In this document: positions 1,092-54,917 of the stretch, piece after piece
Layout: every line of letters begins with the position of its first letter
Numbering within the stretch: the stretch's first letter is position 1
Source: Thioclava sediminum
GTDB taxonomy: Bacteria > Pseudomonadota > Alphaproteobacteria > Rhodobacterales > Rhodobacteraceae
DNA length: 64,000 nucleotides
Direction: 5' to 3'
NCBI RefSeq assembly: GCF_002020355.1
Contig: NZ_MPZV01000001.1
Span: 248,001 to 312,000 of the forward strand
Program-made: the position numbers and the translations under genes
The notes under the pieces: generated by a model
Told to the model about the DNA's origin: nothing
The model's input: the letters and a program-made list of their open reading frames with translations, nothing else
Database searches by the model: none

Positions 1092-2558
1092 ATGACCACG
1101 CATAAGCTCTTCATCGACGGCGAATACCGCGCCGCGCAATCGGGCAAGACCTTCGACAAGATTTCCCCGTCCACCGGCGAAAAGATCGCCGATGTGCATG
1201 AGGCGCTGGCCGAGGATGTGAATGACGCGGTTGAGGCAGCACAGGCGGCGCTGAAAGGCCCCTGGGGCAAGATGCCGAAGGCGCAACGCTGCGACCTGTT
1301 GATGAAGCTCGCCGACGCCATCGACGCGCGCAAGGCCGATTTCATGGAAGCGGAAGTACAGGACACCGGCCACACCCGCGGTTTCGCCGAGAAGGTCGAG
1401 ATCCCACGCGGCGCGGCCAACTTCCGGATCTTCGCGGAGATGCTGAAGAACACGGGCGGCGAGTATTTCCACATGGATACGCCCGACGGCACGGGCGCGG
1501 CCAATCTCGAACTGCATCGCCCGAAAGGGGTTATCGGGGTGATCTCGCCCTGGAACGCGCCGTTCCTGCTGATGACGTGGAAGGTTGGCCCCGCGCTGGC
1601 CTGCGGCAATACGGTCGTCGTGAAACCGTCCGAGGAAAGCCCCGCCACCGCGACCCTGCTGGGCGAGGTGATGAACGAGGTGGGCATCCCGAAAGGCGTC
1701 TATAACGTCATCCACGGCTTCGGTCCGGAAAGCGCGGGCGAGTTGCTGACCCAGCATCCGGGCGTCAACGGCATCACCTTCACCGGCGAGACCCGCACCG
1801 GCGAGGCGATCATGAAACAAGCCGCGGTGGGTCTGCGCGATGTGTCGTTCGAGCTGGGCGGCAAGAACCCTGCTATCGTCTTTGCCGATGCAGATATGGA
1901 CAAGGCGATCGAGGTCACGATGCGCTCGTGTTTCGCCAATACCGGGCAGGTCTGTCTGGGAACCGAGCGGATTTACGTCGAACGCCCCGTCTTCGAGGAA
2001 TTCGTCAGCCGCCTGAAAGCGGGCGCGGAAGCTCTGATCCAAGGCGGACCGGATACCGACGGCGCGACCATCGGCCCGCTGATCTCCGCCGAGCATCGTG
2101 AGAAGGTGCTGAGCTATTACAAAAAGGCCGCCGATCTGGGCGCTCAGATCATCACCGGCGGCGGCGTCCCCGACTTCCCCGATGGCGATTACCGCAACGG
2201 TGGTTTCTTCGTCGAGCCCACGATCTGGACCGGCCTGCCCGAGGACAGCCCCATCGTGCGCGAGGAAATCTTCGGCCCCTGCTGCCACATCCAGCCCTTC
2301 GACAGCGAAGACGAGGTGATCGCGATGGCCACTGACACCAATTACGGGCTGTCGGCCACGATCCTCACCGAAAACCTCAGCCGCGCCCATCGCGTCGGCG
2401 GGCAGATGGAGGCGGGTCTCGTCTGGGTCAATTCGTGGTTCCTGCGCGACCTGCGAACGGCCTTCGGTGGCTCGAAATCCTCCGGGATCGGACGCGAAGG
2501 CGGGGTGCATTCGCTCGAATTCTACACCGAGCGGACGAACCTCTGTATCAAGCTGTGA
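1092..2558 (+). CDS. 2-hydroxymuconic semialdehyde dehydrogenase (aldehyde dehydrogenase family)
   Basis: The 488-residue NAD-dependent aldehyde dehydrogenase would oxidise 2-hydroxymuconic semialdehyde to 2-hydroxymuconate (oxalocrotonate). The fold markers are PWNAP with Asn155, FELGG with the general base Glu254, and GQVCLG with the nucleophile Cys288. The C-terminal tail from about residue 448 (WFLRDLRTAFGGSK, then GREGGVHSLEFYTE) is characteristic of the DmpC/XylG/NahI/AmnC group. The ATG at 1092 follows GGGAGGACGAT; the reading frame stays open far upstream, but that part is non-coding in character. A 2-aminomuconic semialdehyde dehydrogenase (AmnC-like) is the main alternative. A 164-bp repeat begins 19 bp after the stop. 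Confidence 0.9.
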   Translation: MTTHKLFIDGEYRAAQSGKTFDKISPSTGEKIADVHEALAEDVNDAVEAAQAALKGPWGKMPKAQRCDLLMKLADAIDARKADFMEAEVQDTGHTRGFAEKVEIPRGAANFRIFAEMLKNTGGEYFHMDTPDGTGAANLELHRPKGVIGVISPWNAPFLLMTWKVGPALACGNTVVVKPSEESPATATLLGEVMNEVGIPKGVYNVIHGFGPESAGELLTQHPGVNGITFTGETRTGEAIMKQAAVGLRDVSFELGGKNPAIVFADADMDKAIEVTMRSCFANTGQVCLGTERIYVERPVFEEFVSRLKAGAEALIQGGPDTDGATIGPLISAEHREKVLSYYKKAADLGAQIITGGGVPDFPDGDYRNGGFFVEPTIWTGLPEDSPIVREEIFGPCCHIQPFDSEDEVIAMATDTNYGLSATILTENLSRAHRVGGQMEAGLVWVNSWFLRDLRTAFGGSKSSGIGREGGVHSLEFYTERTNLCIKL

Positions 2559-2577
2559 GCGCCAGCCTCGCGAGCCG

Positions 2578-2741
2578 CGCCCGGTGCGCGCCGCAGGCGC
2601 AGGGCGCGCGCCGGACCGTCCCCACGGGCTGGCGCCTTGCCATCCGCGCGCGTGGCTCGAGCGATGGGCGAAGCCGCACGGATAAAGCGCATCCGCTGAT
2701 ATGTCAGAATGCGCCACCCCACGGGCCGCCGCGCGCCCTGC
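2578..2741. repeat. 164-bp intergenic repeat, copy 1
   Basis: This is the first of three elements of exactly equal length (others at 6376-6539 and 54737-54900). The left block starts CGCCCGGTGCGCGCCG and contains a GCGCC/GGCGC hairpin. From 2599 the sequence GCAGGGCGCGCGCCGGACCG is answered at the right end (2711-2741) by its imperfect reverse complement. A conserved ATAAAGCGC sits at 2682. The centre is variable. It lies between the semialdehyde dehydrogenase gene and the LysR gene. Confidence 0.8.
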
Positions 2742-2790
2742 TTGCCCCCTTCGCGATTGTGCCTCACTCTGAGCGCCGGAGAGGACACCC

Positions 2791-3681
2791 ATGAACCTGC
2801 GTCAGCTTCGCTATTTCATCGCCGTGGCCGAGGAACTGCATTTCGGTCGCGCGGCCGAGCGGCTTCATGTCTCTCAGCCGCCGATCACCCGCCAGATTCA
2901 GGCGCTGGAGGAACAGCTCGGCGCGCAGCTTTTCAACCGCACGCCGCGCGGTGTCGAACTGACGCAGGCGGGGGCGCTGTTTCTCGATGAGGCGCGCAAC
3001 ATCGCGGCGCTGCTCGATCAGGCGGCGGACCGGGTCCATCGGGCGTCCGAGGGCGGGCTTGGCCGGGTCGACATCGCGATCTTCGGCACCGCGATCCTCA
3101 GCTTCATCCCGCGGATCATCCTCGAATTCAAACGCCGCTATCCGGATGTGAAAGTGGTGATGCACGCGCTCGACAAGCTGGCGCAGATCGAGGGGCTGCA
3201 GAACCGCTCGATCGATCTGGGCTTCAACCGGATGCTGACGCCGGTGCCGGGTCTCGCGATCGAGGAACTGGCCTCGGAGCCGCTCTATATCGTCGTGCCC
3301 GATCCGGGGCCTTTCGCGGATCGCGAGAGCGTCGCGCTGTCGGAACTGGCGCGCGAACCGATGATGCTGTTTCCCGCCAGCCGCGCGCAGGGGTTCGTCG
3401 AGAAGGTCACGGGGCTCTGCCACGAGGCGGGGTTCGCGCCCAATGTCGCGCAGGTCGTGGGCGACGGCTTTACCGCGATGGCGCTGGTCGCGGCGGGGTT
3501 CGGCGTCTCGGTCGTCCCGCAATCGATCACATCGGTCATCATGGAGGGCGTGAAATGCCTGCCGATCAGTGATGTGAGCGACAGCGCGCGGGTCGATATC
3601 TCCTGCATCTCGCGAGAGGGTGACACGTCCCCGATCGTCGCGAACTTCCTCGAGGTCGCACGCAGTTTAAGCCAGCAATAA
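2791..3681 (+). CDS. LysR family transcriptional regulator
   Basis: The 296-residue protein starts with a typical LysR winged helix-turn-helix (MNLRQLRYFIAVAEELHFGR, then AAERLHVSQPPITRQIQALE), followed by a substrate-binding domain from about residue 90. The N-terminus resembles the CatM/BenM/CbnR group, which sense muconate-type aromatic intermediates. It sits inside the meta-cleavage cluster between the dehydrogenase and tautomerase genes, so control of this cluster is the most economical inference. The ATG at 2791 follows GGAGAGGACACCC. Confidence 0.92.
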   Translation: MNLRQLRYFIAVAEELHFGRAAERLHVSQPPITRQIQALEEQLGAQLFNRTPRGVELTQAGALFLDEARNIAALLDQAADRVHRASEGGLGRVDIAIFGTAILSFIPRIILEFKRRYPDVKVVMHALDKLAQIEGLQNRSIDLGFNRMLTPVPGLAIEELASEPLYIVVPDPGPFADRESVALSELAREPMMLFPASRAQGFVEKVTGLCHEAGFAPNVAQVVGDGFTAMALVAAGFGVSVVPQSITSVIMEGVKCLPISDVSDSARVDISCISREGDTSPIVANFLEVARSLSQQ

Positions 3682-3912
3682 CAAAGCACTGTAAAACGAT
3701 CTTCATGTCGCCGGCCGGACGCAGCCCGGATGCTGAATCATGCCATATCTAGGAGTTCCCCTCATCCAGAGCGATGCGCCTTCGGTATCGAAACCCGGAC
3801 TAAATGGTATTTGATCGTATCGCCTCTTCTGCCCCAATCTCGGTCCACGGACACGCCGAGGAGGCCCCGACACGCGGGGAATGAGGGCGCGTCCCGAGAC
3901 AGAGGAGCAGTC

Positions 3913-4170
3913 ATGCCGGTAATCCAGATCAACCTTATGGAAGGCCGCACCGAGGCGCAGAAAGAAGCGCTGATGCGCGAGGTCACGCGCGCGGCGGTCG
4001 ACACGCTGGGCGTCAAGCCGCAGGCCGTTCGGATCATGCTCAACGAGCTGCGCTCGGGCCATTACGCGGTCGCGGGCGAGCCGAAATATGTCGAAGCGAG
4101 CGAGCAACCCGCCGCCGCCTCGAACGGCACAGCCCCGACCAACGGCCACGAGAAGGCCCCCGCAAACTGA
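3913..4170 (+). CDS. 4-oxalocrotonate tautomerase (2-hydroxymuconate tautomerase) with a C-terminal tail
   Basis: The 85-residue protein begins MPVIQINLMEGRTEAQKEA. After removal of Met it exposes the catalytic Pro1, and Arg11 and Arg39 fall exactly where 4-oxalocrotonate tautomerases carry them; position 50 is Tyr instead of the usual Phe. It would ketonise 2-hydroxymuconate in the meta pathway. Classical family members have about 62 residues; this one adds a low-complexity Ala/Pro/Asn tail after about residue 58. The ATG follows AGAGGAGCAGTC and was chosen because Pro must follow Met; the frame is open upstream from 3730. The dioxygenase gene starts 35 bp downstream, in the same operon. Confidence 0.9.
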   Translation: MPVIQINLMEGRTEAQKEALMREVTRAAVDTLGVKPQAVRIMLNELRSGHYAVAGEPKYVEASEQPAAASNGTAPTNGHEKAPAN

Positions 4171-4205
4171 CCGCATTCACCGTATCGAGCTTTAGGGAGG
4201 ACACC

Positions 4206-5219
4206 ATGAGCTTTCAGGAACAGATCCACGATATCGCGCAGCTTGCCTGCATCGAACTTTTCACCCCCAAATTCGAGGAAAGCTTCTGGTTCTTCCACGA
4301 TGTTTTGGGCATGACGCCCACCGAGGATGACGGCAAATCCTGCTACCTGCGCGGCTACGAGGACCGCTATCACCACTCGCTGAAGCTGACGCGCTCGGAC
4401 AAGGCCGGGATCGGCATGGTCGGTTGGCGCGCCTCCTCGCCGCAGGCGCTGGAGCGTCGCGTGGCCGTGCTAGAGGCCTCGGGCAACCCGGGCAAATGGG
4501 TCGAGGGTCACAAGGGTTACGGCCGCGCCTATGAATTTACCACGCCGGACGGCCACAAGCAGCATCTGTTCTGGGAGGTCGAGTATTACGAGGCCCCGGC
4601 AGAGCTGAAATCGAAGCTGCTCTCGCGCGCCCAGAAGCGTCCGCTGCGTGGGGTGCCGGTGCGTCGTCTCGATCATGTCAACCTGCTCTGCTCGGACGTG
4701 ACCAAGAACGGCAAGTTCCTGCAGGACAATCTCGGCTTCCTGAAGCGTGAGAACGTGGTCTTCGGCGGCTCGGACGAGCTGGCGGCGTGGTTCTCGGTCA
4801 GCCCGCTCGTGCACGAGGTCGCCTTCACCAAGGATCAGGCCGGTCCGGGTAACCGTCTGCACCATGTCGCCTTCTGGTATGGCAATCAGGGTCAGATGCT
4901 CGACCTTGCCGATATCTTGCAGGAATACGATGTCACGATCGAAGCGGGCCCGGCGAAGCACGGCGTCTCTCAGGCCTATTTCATGTATGTCTACGAGCCC
5001 GGCGGCAACCGCATCGAGCTGTTCGGCGACACCGGCTACCTGATCTTCGATCCGGACTGGAAGACGCTGACCTGGGACGAGAGCAACTTCTTCAACGGTG
5101 GCGGTGTCTGGTTCGGCGGCGAGCTTCCGCAGGACTTCTTCGTCTATGGCACGCCCATCGTCGAGGCCGCGATGGCCGAGGCGGAGACCAAGGACGAAGT
5201 GGCCGAACCGGCCGAGTAA
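4206..5219 (+). CDS. Catechol 2,3-dioxygenase (type I extradiol dioxygenase)
   Basis: The 337-residue protein has two vicinal-oxygen-chelate domains. Iron ligands can be placed at His157 (LDHVNLL), the LHHVAF histidine at 219/220 and Glu271 (GGNRIELFGD). Catalytic-site histidines resembling XylE are near 203 and 252. It would cleave catechol (or a substituted catechol) next to the diol to give 2-hydroxymuconic semialdehyde, the substrate of the dehydrogenase at 1092-2558. The start has a strong AGGGAGGACACC site. The C-terminal 40 residues are acidic and longer than in XylE. Substrate range cannot be judged from sequence; an aminophenol or phenol pathway is possible. Confidence 0.9.
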   Translation: MSFQEQIHDIAQLACIELFTPKFEESFWFFHDVLGMTPTEDDGKSCYLRGYEDRYHHSLKLTRSDKAGIGMVGWRASSPQALERRVAVLEASGNPGKWVEGHKGYGRAYEFTTPDGHKQHLFWEVEYYEAPAELKSKLLSRAQKRPLRGVPVRRLDHVNLLCSDVTKNGKFLQDNLGFLKRENVVFGGSDELAAWFSVSPLVHEVAFTKDQAGPGNRLHHVAFWYGNQGQMLDLADILQEYDVTIEAGPAKHGVSQAYFMYVYEPGGNRIELFGDTGYLIFDPDWKTLTWDESNFFNGGGVWFGGELPQDFFVYGTPIVEAAMAEAETKDEVAEPAE

Positions 5220-5243
5220 TTCCTCTCCGCAGTTTCGGAGGCT

Positions 5244-5270
5244 GGCCATCCCCTCGGGGGTGGCCTTTTT
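5244..5270 (+). terminator. Intrinsic terminator after the dioxygenase gene
   Basis: A ten-base-pair stem GGCCATCCCC / GGGGGTGGCC (one wobble pair) with a three-base loop is followed directly by TTTTT. It lies 24 bp after the dioxygenase stop codon and probably ends the tautomerase-dioxygenase transcript. Confidence 0.85.
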
Positions 5271-5305
5271 GGTTTTGGGGATGGCGTCGACCTCCGGTCT
5301 CGCCC

Positions 5306-5459
5306 GGGGCGACCAGCCCCGGGAGGGCGCTTTTGCGACGCTGCTGCGCGCACCGATCACTCTCGGATCTTGCGAGATAAAGCGCGAACCACGACTGTCG
5401 TCACGCGCCCACCCGAGGTCGGGCGCCGCCCTCTGGCGCGGCCCGGGGCTGGTCGCCCC
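5306..5459. repeat. Inverted repeat pair flanking an intergenic spacer
   Basis: An 18-bp sequence at 5306-5323 (GGGGCGACCAGCCCCGGG) is repeated as an exact reverse complement at 5442-5459, 118 bp apart, within the 363-bp gap between the dioxygenase and pcaD genes. Each arm can also fold on itself (CCCCGGG-type hairpins). The spacer carries ATAAAGCGC at 5377, also found in the 164-bp repeats, but is otherwise unlike them. I see no gene in it. Confidence 0.65.
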
Positions 5460-5492
5460 GCGCCAGTAGATCCCGGCGCCACCTCCGCATCA

Positions 5493-5519
5493 GGTATCAC
5501 CCGGGTAATCCCCGATACC
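5493..5519. promoter_or_regulatory. Palindromic site upstream of pcaD
   Basis: The arms GGTATC (5493-5498) and GATACC (5514-5519) are perfect inverted repeats around ACCCGGGT-containing DNA, 64 bp before the pcaD start. It has the size of a dimeric regulator operator. The protein that binds it is unknown; the IclR- or LysR-type regulators of the cluster are candidates. Confidence 0.4.
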
Positions 5520-5582
5520 TCCGCGGTATGTTTTCCTTCCCCCGTCCCGCGCGCTACAACCTCCTGCAAAGAGGAGGCTTTC

Positions 5583-6365
5583 ATGCACGCACTGACCCAT
5601 GACGGGGTGACGCTCCACATTCTCGACCAGGGCCCGCGCGACGGCCGTGTGGTGATGTTCGGCAATTCGCTCGGCAGCGATCTGCGGCTCTGGGAGGCGC
5701 TGATCCCGCATCTGCCCGAGGGGCTGCGGCTGATCCGCTTCGACAAGCGCGGGCATGGGCTGAGCGATTGCCCGCCCGGCCCCTACAGCATCGAGGACCT
5801 CTCGGGCGATGCCGCCGCGATCTGCGATGCGCTCGGGCTTCGGGACGTGACCTTTATCGGCCTCTCGATCGGCGGGCTGATCGGACAGAGCCTCGCCGCG
5901 CGCCGTCCTGATCTTCTGCGCGCGCTCGTCCTGATGGACACCGCCGCCAAGATCGGCACGCCCGAGATGTGGAACGAGCGGATCGCCAATGTGCGCCGCG
6001 ACGGGATCGCGAGCATCTCCGACGCGATCCTCGCACGCTGGTTCGCGCCCGGTTTCGCCGAGGCCCACCCGGCGGAGTTCGCGCTCTGCCGCAACATGCT
6101 CGAACGTGGGCCCGACGAGGGCTATGCGGGCTGCTGCGCGGCGATTGCCGGGGCCGATCAGACCGAGGCGACACGGGCGCTGACACTGCCGGTGATGGCG
6201 ATGACGGGTGCGGATGACGCCTCGACCCCGCCCGATCTGGTGCGCGCCACGGCAGAGCTGTGCGGCGCCGCGTTCCACGAGATCGCGAATGCGGGCCACC
6301 TGCCCTGTTACGAGCAGCCCAAGGCTGTCGCGGCGCTGTTGAAGGCGTTCTTGGACAAGACCTGA
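5583..6365 (+). CDS. pcaD: 3-oxoadipate enol-lactonase
   Basis: The 260-residue alpha/beta hydrolase carries the nucleophile elbow GLSIGG (Ser95), an acid residue near Asp211/212 and the histidine at 239 (AGHLPCYEQP). Sequence and length match PcaD, which opens beta-ketoadipate enol-lactone to 3-oxoadipate in the protocatechuate/catechol ortho pathway. The start at 5583 follows AAAGAGGAGGCTTTC; the open frame extends upstream to 5370, but this part is the repeat-bearing intergenic region. The CoA-transferase and thiolase that use its product are encoded convergently just downstream. Other pca genes are not in the window. Confidence 0.88.
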   Translation: MHALTHDGVTLHILDQGPRDGRVVMFGNSLGSDLRLWEALIPHLPEGLRLIRFDKRGHGLSDCPPGPYSIEDLSGDAAAICDALGLRDVTFIGLSIGGLIGQSLAARRPDLLRALVLMDTAAKIGTPEMWNERIANVRRDGIASISDAILARWFAPGFAEAHPAEFALCRNMLERGPDEGYAGCCAAIAGADQTEATRALTLPVMAMTGADDASTPPDLVRATAELCGAAFHEIANAGHLPCYEQPKAVAALLKAFLDKT

Positions 6366-6375
6366 GCTAACACCC

Positions 6376-6539
6376 CGCCCGGTGCGCGCCGAAGGCGCAG
6401 GGCGCGCGACGGCCCGTCCCGACGGGCTGGCGCGATTGAGGCGGCGTGCCCAGCGGGAAGCTCAGAGGAATGTGGCGGGCATAAACCGCCGCAGCGGACA
6501 ACGGGCGCGCGCCACCCCACGGGCCGCCGCGCACCCTGC
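6376..6539. repeat. 164-bp intergenic repeat, copy 2
   Basis: The second copy is exactly as long as copies 1 and 3. Its left end (6376) starts 10 bp after the pcaD stop and its right end (6539) is 5 bp from the pcaF stop, so the element fills the convergent gap completely. The inverted ends are well matched here: GCAGGGCGCGCGACGGCCCG at 6397 against GCAGGGTGCGCGGCGGCCCG read backwards from 6539. A CCCGTCCCGACGGG hairpin sits in the left arm. The ATAAA core is at 6481. Confidence 0.8.
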
Positions 6540-6544
6540 TTTCG

Positions 6545-7750
6545 TTACACCGCCTCCAGCGCCACAGCGATACCCTGCCCCACGCCGATGCACATCGTGG
6601 CAAGCGCCCGTTGGCCCTTGCAGCGCACCAGTTCCAGCGCCGCCGTGCCGGTGATCCGCGCGCCTGACATGCCCAGCGGATGGCCAAGCGCAATCGCGCC
6701 GCCATTGGGGTTCACTCGCGCATCGTCATCCGCAATGCCGAGATCGCGCAGCGTGGCCAGACCTTGGCTCGCAAAGGCTTCGTTGAGCTCGATCACGTCG
6801 AAGGCGTCCTGCGTCAGCCCCAGCCGCGCCATCAGCTTCTTGCTGGCAGGCGCGGGCCCGAAGCCCATGATCCGCGGCGGCACGCCCGCCGCCGCCCCGC
6901 CGGAGATCTTCACCAGCGGCGTCAGCCCGTGTTTGCGCACGGCCTCCTCGGAGGCGATGATCAGCGCCGCTGCGCCATCGTTCACGCCGGACGCATTGCC
7001 CGCCGTGACCGTGCCGTCGGGCCGCACGATGGGCCGCAGCTTGGTCAGCGCTTCCAGCGTGGTGCCGGGGCGCGGGTGTTCGTCAGTGTCGACCACGACC
7101 GGCTCGCCCTTGCGCTGCGGGATCGTGACCGGGGTGATCTCCTCGGCCAGACGGCCCGCTTCCATCGCCTTGGCCGCAGCCTCCTGCGAGCGGAGCGCGA
7201 AGGCATCCTGATCTTCACGGCTCACGCCGAAATCATCGGCCACGTTCTCTGCTGTCTCGGGCATCGAGTCGACGCCATGGGTCTCTTTCATCAGCTTGTT
7301 CACGAAGCGCCAGCCGATTGTCGTGTCATAGACCGCATTGGCGCGGCTATAGGCGGCCTCGGCCTTCGGCATCACGAAGGGCGCGCGCGACATGCTCTCG
7401 ACGCCGCCCGCGATCATCAGATCGGCCTCGCCCGCCTTGATCGCGCGGGCGGCGGTGACGATGGCATCCATGCCCGAACCGCAAAGCCGGTTGATCGTGG
7501 TCCCCGGCACGTTCACCGGGAGACCCGCGAGCAGCGCCGACATGCGGGCCACGTTGCGGTTGTCCTCGCCCGCCTGATTGGCGCAACCGAAGATCACGTC
7601 CTCGACCGCTTCCCAATCGACGCCCGTGTTGCGCGCCATCAGGGCTTTCAAGGGGATCGCCCCCAGATCGTCGGCCCGGACAGGCGCCAGCGCACCGCCG
7701 AAACGGCCGATCGGGGTTCGGATATAGTCGCAGATATAAGCGTCACGCAT
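6545..7750 (-). CDS. pcaF: 3-oxoadipyl-CoA thiolase
   Basis: The 401-residue thiolase carries the nucleophile Cys90 (INRLCGSGMDAI), His357 (ALGHPLGMSGAR) and Cys387 (MCIGVGQG). It is the last step of the beta-ketoadipate pathway: cleavage of 3-oxoadipyl-CoA to succinyl-CoA and acetyl-CoA. The neighbouring pcaIJ genes, overlapping by 8 bp, support PcaF over a generic acetyl-CoA acetyltransferase. It is the distal gene of the pcaIJF operon. Confidence 0.92.
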   Translation of the reverse strand: MRDAYICDYIRTPIGRFGGALAPVRADDLGAIPLKALMARNTGVDWEAVEDVIFGCANQAGEDNRNVARMSALLAGLPVNVPGTTINRLCGSGMDAIVTAARAIKAGEADLMIAGGVESMSRAPFVMPKAEAAYSRANAVYDTTIGWRFVNKLMKETHGVDSMPETAENVADDFGVSREDQDAFALRSQEAAAKAMEAGRLAEEITPVTIPQRKGEPVVVDTDEHPRPGTTLEALTKLRPIVRPDGTVTAGNASGVNDGAAALIIASEEAVRKHGLTPLVKISGGAAAGVPPRIMGFGPAPASKKLMARLGLTQDAFDVIELNEAFASQGLATLRDLGIADDDARVNPNGGAIALGHPLGMSGARITGTAALELVRCKGQRALATMCIGVGQGIAVALEAV

Positions 7751-54694: not shown

Positions 54695-54736
54695 GGGGCT
54701 GAGGGCAGCGCCCGAGCCTCGGGGGCTTTGCGATGG

Positions 54737-54900
54737 CGCGCGGAACGCGCCGAAGGCGCAGGGCGCGCGCCGGTCCGTCCCGACGGGCTGGCGCATTGCC
54801 ACCCGCACACATCGTTCATACTGTGGGAGGCTTGGCAGGCATAAAGCGCCTTCGTTCAAAACTCAGGCCACGCCACCCCACGGACCGGCGAGCGCCCTTC
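54737..54900. repeat. 164-bp intergenic repeat, copy 3
   Basis: The third and most diverged copy. Its left block (GCGCCGAAGGCGCAGGGCGC) and the CCGTCCCGACGGGCTGGCGC hairpin match copies 1 and 2, and ATAAAGCGC sits at 54841. The right end (ACGCCACCCCACGGACCGGC, then GAGCGCCCTTC) has several changes. After it comes an ordinary intrinsic terminator. It lies between the CoA-transferase and pyrophosphatase genes, which converge. Confidence 0.78.
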
Positions 54901-54917
54901 TACCCGACCAAACGAAA

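Follow-up and report, generated by a model that had tools for sequence, protein, structure and literature searches.

A palindromic intergenic repeat family in Thioclava sediminum and other members of the Rhodobacter family

Copies of the element in the analysed window

The analysed window is a stretch of 64,000 nucleotides from Thioclava sediminum, and its segment from 1092 to 7750 carries a group of aromatic-degradation genes: 2-hydroxymuconic semialdehyde dehydrogenase, catechol 2,3-dioxygenase, pcaD, and pcaF. The window genes were named by profile matches (TIGR02427, TIGR02430, and NF006551 for the pcaD/pcaF region). Three of the four window copies of the repeat described here lie in this neighbourhood, within 4 kb. 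The initial annotation had recognised three intergenic segments of 164 bp as one repeat family, and this assignment is borne out by an alignment of constant length with conserved ends and a conserved ATAAA core, as well as by an unguided repeat search of the window, whose top listing consists of three copies of 166 nt at 2577–2742, 6375–6540, and 54736–54901, the other two being 66% and 75% identical to the reference copy. The equality of the lengths stands, with the right ends placed about 2 bases further 3′ and the unit at about 166 bp by the model. A covariance model of 40 copies (A2 and R1) matches the three copies with E-values of 3e-25 to 1e-21, which are partly so by construction, the three copies having been included when the model was built. 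All three segments are real, and a fourth, diverged copy at about 5290–5445 had been missed; it has the same architecture, with a covariance model match at 5308–5427 (30.3 bits, E 3.5e-4) and a family-B profile match of 73 bits. We refer to the type of the three segments as family A and to the type of the fourth copy as family B. The left part of copy 4 is shorter than in the relatives G012 and G006, and a terminator-like hairpin (5244–5265) stands between the catechol 2,3-dioxygenase-like gene and this copy. Copy 2 fills the gap between pcaD and pcaF as annotated, starting 10 bp past the pcaD stop and stopping 3 bp short of where the convergent pcaF open reading frame ends. The features are as follows.

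2578..2743, plus strand: copy 1, family A, flanked by aldehyde dehydrogenase and LysR-type regulator genes running in the same direction
5290..5445, plus strand: copy 4, family B, 3′ of the catechol 2,3-dioxygenase-like gene (covariance model and family-B profile)
5432..5467, minus strand: 36-nt remnant at the 3′ edge of copy 4, left over from the left end of another family-B element in opposite orientation
6376..6541, plus strand: copy 2, family A, whole element (alignment, repeat search, covariance model, gene calls)
6376..6398, plus strand: copy 2, left-end hairpin, CGCCCGG followed by GCGCC-GAA-GGCGC at 6386–6398 (sequence; alternative 5′ helix count)
6399..6417, plus strand: copy 2, left arm of the long stem (stem analysis)
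6413..6426, plus strand: copy 2, small local hairpin CCCGT-CCCG-ACGGG, which excludes the long stem (sequence; pair counts)
6428..6433, plus strand: copy 2, left strand of the inner stem, TGGCGC (stem analysis)
6481..6485, plus strand: copy 2, core (ATAAA) of the conserved internal box, with every position retained in at least 90% of the 34-row alignment
6509..6514, plus strand: copy 2, right strand of the inner stem, GCGCCA (stem analysis)
6519..6537, plus strand: copy 2, right arm of the long stem (stem analysis)
54700..54723, minus strand: 24-nt remnant, the right end of an opposite family-B element directly 5′ of copy 3
54737..54902, plus strand: copy 3, family A, flanked by a CoA-transferase gene and an inorganic pyrophosphatase gene that converge

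Fold, covariation, and the choice between DNA and RNA

The left end of the element begins with a short strand (CGCCCGG in family A), after which come a bulge that reads AATCAA in many genera, a small hairpin, and the left arm of the long stem. The left arm is followed by the local hairpin (CCCGT..ACGGG), the inner strand GGCGC, and an interior of about 75 nt that diverges between copies except for one conserved box, TTGGC..ATAAAG.GC; the 3′ part consists of the inner strand GCGCC and the right arm. The two small hairpins that had been proposed for copy 2 are both present, and CGCCC in its left-end hairpin region is complementary to the beginning of the left arm. In an alignment of 34 rows from 24 genera, 92.1% of the cells of the long and inner stems are paired, compared with 31.5–46% in slid versions of the stems, 17 of the 26 pairs have changed on both sides, and the covariation score is 0.359 versus 0.02–0.08 for the slid structures. 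For the long stem, 14 of 20 pairs changed on both sides across the 24 genera. The 5′ hairpin, formed with the initial bases of the left arm, is 80.6% paired with 8 of 10 pairs covarying, and the local hairpin, formed with the remainder of the arm, is 90.9% paired with 4 of 11 pairs covarying (34 rows each), although by pair count alone 84 of 500 shuffles equal the latter. The two local hairpins and the long stem are mutually exclusive, yet all of them covary, which indicates that the left arm is kept complementary to two partners. The length of the element is nearly constant, at 159–172 in the 34 rows, and the span between the fixed motifs is 95–102 in all 131 distinct pattern copies listed, many of them from the single species P. 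tamaricis, though the pattern allowed 87–117. RNAalifold gave no conserved central hairpin in the interior. Folded as single-stranded DNA, copy 3 has a z-score of −4.18 with none of 200 shuffles as good. In two loci (L079:1499–1705 and L080:1731–1944) about 40–50 extra bases stand in the left part of the element as insertions into the palindrome, those of L079 being hairpin-like.

By its behaviour the element looks like DNA rather than RNA, a reading drawn from the balance of G-T and A-C mismatches, the unbiased orientation, the lack of a kept reading frame, and the lack of an Rfam match. An RNA helix is expected to favour G-U on the transcribed strand. Over 16 stem pairs in 117 copies (of the 131 listed, 14 without an anchor having been left out) we counted 1539 Watson-Crick cells, 50 G-T, 51 A-C, and 232 others. 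In the 34-row cross-genus set the mismatches are uneven, with 8 G-T and 18 A-C in the long stem and 17 G-T and no A-C in the local hairpin; because this small set is uneven in opposite senses, more weight was given to the larger one, and the imbalance means that a constraint on one strand keeps some plausibility. A structured non-coding RNA in multiple copies, or an RNA device acting in cis, would fit the covariation and the conserved unpaired motifs, which resemble those of an RNA family, and also the G-T excess on the plus strand of the local hairpin, though coupling to the long stem can cause the latter. Against such an RNA stand the opposite lean of the long stem, the overall balance, and the orientation between same-direction genes of other genera, where 22 copies run with and 29 against their neighbours. 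Copies of opposite orientation occupy orthologous sites, the RNA fold of copy 2 reaches z-scores of only −1.59 (plus strand) and −2.26 (minus strand), a comparison with 4227 Rfam families gave no match at gathering score (best weak match of 6330–6580, E 3.1), and no sigma-70-like promoter was found in 5200–6600. Taken together, an RNA of this kind is very improbable, and of the classes named in the initial annotation it is the RNA device that is not supported, whereas a MITE or REP/BIME-like element stands as far as behaviour goes.

Two further roles were rejected. A protein-coding function is not indicated, as the six frames are open in 12–19 of the 34 copies compared with 10.9 expected from mononucleotide shuffles; with no frame open in more than 19 of 34, the warning that gene callers may mistake an Ala/Arg-rich peptide read from the element for a small protein was sensible. 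A terminator role was set aside on account of hairpins with T or A runs outside the copy at site e16 and the terminator-like hairpin before copy 4, so that the element is not needed as a terminator at either place.

Copy number, placement, and turnover

In the 4.13-Mb genome of T. sediminum, blastn gives 5 good copies and the covariance model at least 32 distinct places, among them the fourth copy of the window. The latter number (38 rows at E ≤ 1 minus 5 opposite-strand duplicates and one chance-like row) is a lower bound taken from the best 150 of 7333 candidates, and it does not contain the blastn place C1:583228–583343. In other genomes of the genus the model returned 34 (G006), 30 (G012), 35 (G014), 24 (G001), and 16 (G003) rows at E ≤ 0.005, and such rows may count both strands of one near-palindromic copy. 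A second model (R2), built from 34 copies of 24 genera, found at least 150 matches in G033, 122 rows in G154, 91 in G107, and 16–41 in seven further genomes, with zero rows in two genomes picked as empty. The element is present in dozens of copies per genome and probably in over a hundred in some species. Of 120 genera sampled across the Rhodobacter family, 51 match at E ≤ 1e-5 (one genome per genus, the best 24 candidates of each scored, which makes absences soft). The genome-wide and family-wide covariance search proposed in the initial annotation thus found a dispersed family of many copies with covarying arms and near-constant length, and neither of the outcomes named there as refuting the idea was observed.

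A sample of 191 genomes of the class, searched with stricter filters and the best 15 candidates of each, gave three genomes with matches, all inside the Rhodobacter family, and no match outside it, a soft result at low sensitivity. Two blastn matches of 26–27 nt in other families of the class (G040 and G047) were taken as chance. Among the listed matches of the exact pattern are contigs titled Celeribacter, Roseovarius, Roseivivax, Tropicimonas, Litoreibacter, Alloyangia, Paracoccus, and others. A family-A copy is also carried by L228, a contig titled Maritalea mobilis, a name that we take to lie outside the Rhodobacter family. In the plasmid search a Salipiger plasmid gave the sole match, a partial one covering 28% of the query, and the phage search gave no match to the element.

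Converging gene ends are the preferred location of the copies, which keep clear of genes and promoters. Genes were called with a codon-usage script trained on 17 window reading frames chosen by eye. In the T. sediminum genome, 20 of the 31 callable copies (one of the 32 has no called neighbour) lie between convergent genes and 1 between divergent genes. For other genera, 109 of 134 matches could be counted, 17 lying no more than 400 bp from an end of their stretch and 8 lacking a called gene on one side; 51 of these lie between convergent, 51 between same-direction, and 7 between divergent genes, as compared with 60, 253, and 123, respectively, of 436 element-free gaps in the same stretches, and none of the 109 overlaps a called gene by more than 60 bp. 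At the inspected sites the terminator-like hairpins of the neighbouring genes stand outside the element.

Comparison of Thioclava species, whose flanks are mostly 93–98% identical, shows that the sites stay occupied while the occupant often differs, at loci that were chosen for holding an element and whose occupancy is hence pre-selected. In G014, 15 sites are related by descent, 7 hold an unrelated occupant in opposite and 3 in the same orientation; in G006 the counts are 13 descent in the same orientation, 2 descent-like opposite, 7 unrelated opposite, and 3 unrelated same; in G012 they are 5, 3, and 1 for descent, unrelated opposite, and unrelated same. Site e2 is counted twice in both G006 and G012. 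The unrelated occupants thus comprise 17 opposite and 7 same-orientation rows, which are not independent. Unrelated family-B pairs have their 95th percentile at 0.82, above the descent threshold of 0.80, which makes near-threshold cases uncertain. Occupants of the same orientation are mostly orthologous, and most opposite ones are inside no more alike than random copies. In-place inversion as an explanation of the opposite occupants was rejected on the same interior comparison, an initial version of which used a cruder interior extraction; of the exceptions, e16 in G006 (0.88) is the best and e26 (0.81) is borderline.

At the copy 2 site the orientation is plus in T. sediminum and G014 and minus in G012, G006, and G001. 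The copy 3 site holds a doublet, B(−)A(+), in G006 and G012 and B alone in G014, and in T. sediminum it holds A alone together with the 24-nt fragment of B. At the copy 4 site G014 has a whole opposite element, and in T. sediminum an opposite one is reduced to the 36-nt fragment. This pattern of occupancy fits insertion beside older copies followed by trimming. The site of L126 is a deletion remnant in G009, as probably is the copy 1 site in G001 and G003, where a clean empty site was considered and rejected because a right-end-like stretch persists and deletion is likelier. The sister-strain comparison called for in the initial annotation did not produce the empty sites looked for, and showed instead occupancy, remnants, or flanks lacking a clean alignment; the relatives compared had neither a clean empty site nor a visible target duplication at the three sites of the window or at two more. 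Even a relative of 83% identity has an element at the site of L122, and the sites look old within the genus.

Two observations concern arrays and mixed sites. Three P. tamaricis arrays carry copies every 272–297 bp in the same direction, and in L045, L062, and L065 (G033, presumably P. tamaricis) the arrayed elements alternate with a separate REP-like hairpin, GGTGGGTTGGAAACCCACCCTAC, the other strand of which begins with GTAG. At L111 (G000:C3:602911–603038) a family-B copy is found where G014, G006, and G012 carry a family-A copy, and an apparent right arm of the A copy is left behind it, which suggests that the B copy either took the place of the A copy or inserted into it.

Origin of the family and comparison with known systems

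The reading that we favour, with somewhat more than even confidence, is a non-autonomous, palindromic REP/MITE/CIR-like DNA element of about 160–170 bp, at home in the Rhodobacter family and moved in trans by a putative factor. A host or mobile enzyme would insert copies in trans on recognising the folded single strand with its end hairpins and box, and new copies would land preferentially next to old ones, often in opposite orientation. Doublets would then be cut to one copy by deletions in the palindromes, leaving end fragments, and copies would accumulate between two convergent terminators as a spot that tolerates insertion. The model is weakened by the comparisons made, which found no mobilising gene, clean empty site, or target duplication. 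No transposase was seen by eye among the 15 most widespread protein clusters near elements (501 proteins within 2.5 kb in 119 stretches); one near-element cluster is a tyrosine recombinase (Phage_integrase), located 1.4–2 kb away in two stretches with the same neighbour gene in both, which we take to be probably the housekeeping XerC. A REP/BIME mobilised by a RAYT, the Y1 tyrosine transposase, would be suggested by the left-end hairpin with its bulge, the inverted doublets, and the placement at gene ends, and within the genus PF01797 (Y1_Tnp, RAYT) occurs in 3 of 7 members with blastn copies versus 0 of 9 without, with covariance model copies also found in members lacking it. There is, however, no association at the family level, where PF01797 occurs in 12 of 120 genera and 7 of these 12 carry the element compared with 51 of 120 overall. 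PF01797 is absent from 44 of the 51 element-bearing genera and from the T. sediminum, G012, and G033 genomes, 5 of the 12 PF01797 genera lack the element (one of them, G091, has one partial match with the second model), and eight Y1 loci contain no confident copy (best E 0.075). Mobilisation by RAYT is thereby largely refuted and highly improbable.

The compensatory changes and the turnover could instead come from template switching or gene conversion, with no mover at all. The correction of quasi-palindromes by intrastrand template switching is a mechanism known from the mutagenesis literature, and through it the complementarity of the arms, the three-way relation included, would arise with no selection on the fold in copies that are old and drifting. 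Such self-repair is consistent with the absence of an overall wobble asymmetry, with mutually exclusive helices that both covary as if each arm templates the other, and with the deletions and chimeras at palindromes, but it leaves the near-constant length, the unpaired ATAAA box, and the 5′ bulge unexplained, as well as the high copy numbers and the placement bias, and we consider it improbable. A host-serving chromosomal site that buffers two converging transcription units, e.g. a topoisomerase, nucleoid-protein, or polymerase-blocking site, is unlikely, though in its favour are the strong preference for converging ends, the near-fixed length and conserved internal box, and the sites that stay occupied within the genus while their occupants change; on this account occupancy would be selected, the identity and orientation of the copy would be irrelevant, and exchange would proceed by gene conversion. 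Insertion tolerance explains the placement equally well, however, the turnover was measured solely at loci chosen for holding an element, the inspected neighbours have terminator-like hairpins of their own, 69 of the 120 sampled genera have no match (a soft count), and copies were deleted to remnants in G009 and probably also in G001 and G003. It is also conceivable, if rather improbable, that throughout the family the copies are foldable DNA sites with two exclusive, conserved conformations, local end hairpins or long stem, read by a putative single-strand recombinase that keeps the "berths" between converging genes filled while the occupant is swapped or inverted.

Repeats of this type shape gene ends, may mislead gene callers, and seed rearrangements, and the present one is a large family, present in dozens of genera. 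Berths that stay fixed while the occupant changes, about 25 orthologous sites being comparable for one pair of Thioclava species, amount to a natural experiment for timing insertion, inversion, and loss. Should there be a mover, it ought to emerge from profiling genera that carry the element against genera that lack it; if there is none, the family would be a test case for the evolution of palindromes by template switching.

The element belongs to an ordinary class, that of small palindromic genome passengers, in an unusual form for which we found no description, and it combines strong statistics with a search that found no mover. The titles and opening lines of abstracts in the literature searched, which excludes most subscription journals, hold no description of it in the Rhodobacter family, although one may be in print; two RNA-motif papers that name Rhodobacterales motifs describe other motifs in the portions available. 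In behaviour it is closest to REP/BIMEs, to bacterial MITEs, and above all to the alphaproteobacterial CIRs, the last compared by description alone. CIRs are reportedly the Caulobacter CcrM-associated intergenic repeats of Chen and Shapiro (2003). GANTC, the CcrM site, is present in the 5′ bulge in 15 of the 34 rows, with none in the six Thioclava and two P. tamaricis rows; it is not defining, and is a suggestive lead towards the CIRs rather than proof.

In the strict sense the REP/BIME assignment fails on RAYT, and for a strict MITE neither a clean target duplication nor, in the neighbourhoods inspected, a parent transposase was seen. REPs are extragenic palindromes that are frequent between convergent genes (PMC1525189), and BIMEs occur in high copy number with alternating orientations (PMC2817692), as far as the cited extracts go. 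The element is palindromic and intergenic with some inverted doublets, but it forms one unit, about 165 bp long, that has a long-range stem and in which alternative helices overlap, and it shows no link to RAYT. Correia/NEMIS, ERIC, and related MITE-like repeats are palindromic and of similar size in the excerpts available, with Correia species of 107 and 155 bp (PMC2229807) and RU-1 to RU-3 repeats of 103–168 bp (PMC2759123). For the element, in contrast, no parent insertion sequence was found or target duplication seen, as regards the terminal inverted repeats of MITEs its arms covary strongly but the left one lies about 23 nt inward from the conserved end, and it keeps no reading frame, whereas several MITE-like repeats carry open reading frames (excerpt of PMC2229807). 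Compared with the CIRs, the element profile has no matches outside its own family in the low-sensitivity sample of 191 class genomes, and its length of about 165 bp exceeds the approximately 110 bp given for CIRs (PMC2229807). With the CIRs as the same excerpt describes them, the element shares alphaproteobacterial hosts, multiple copies, and two inverted-repeat arms with a linker between them; CIRs are also reported as strictly intergenic in part of PMC10969869.
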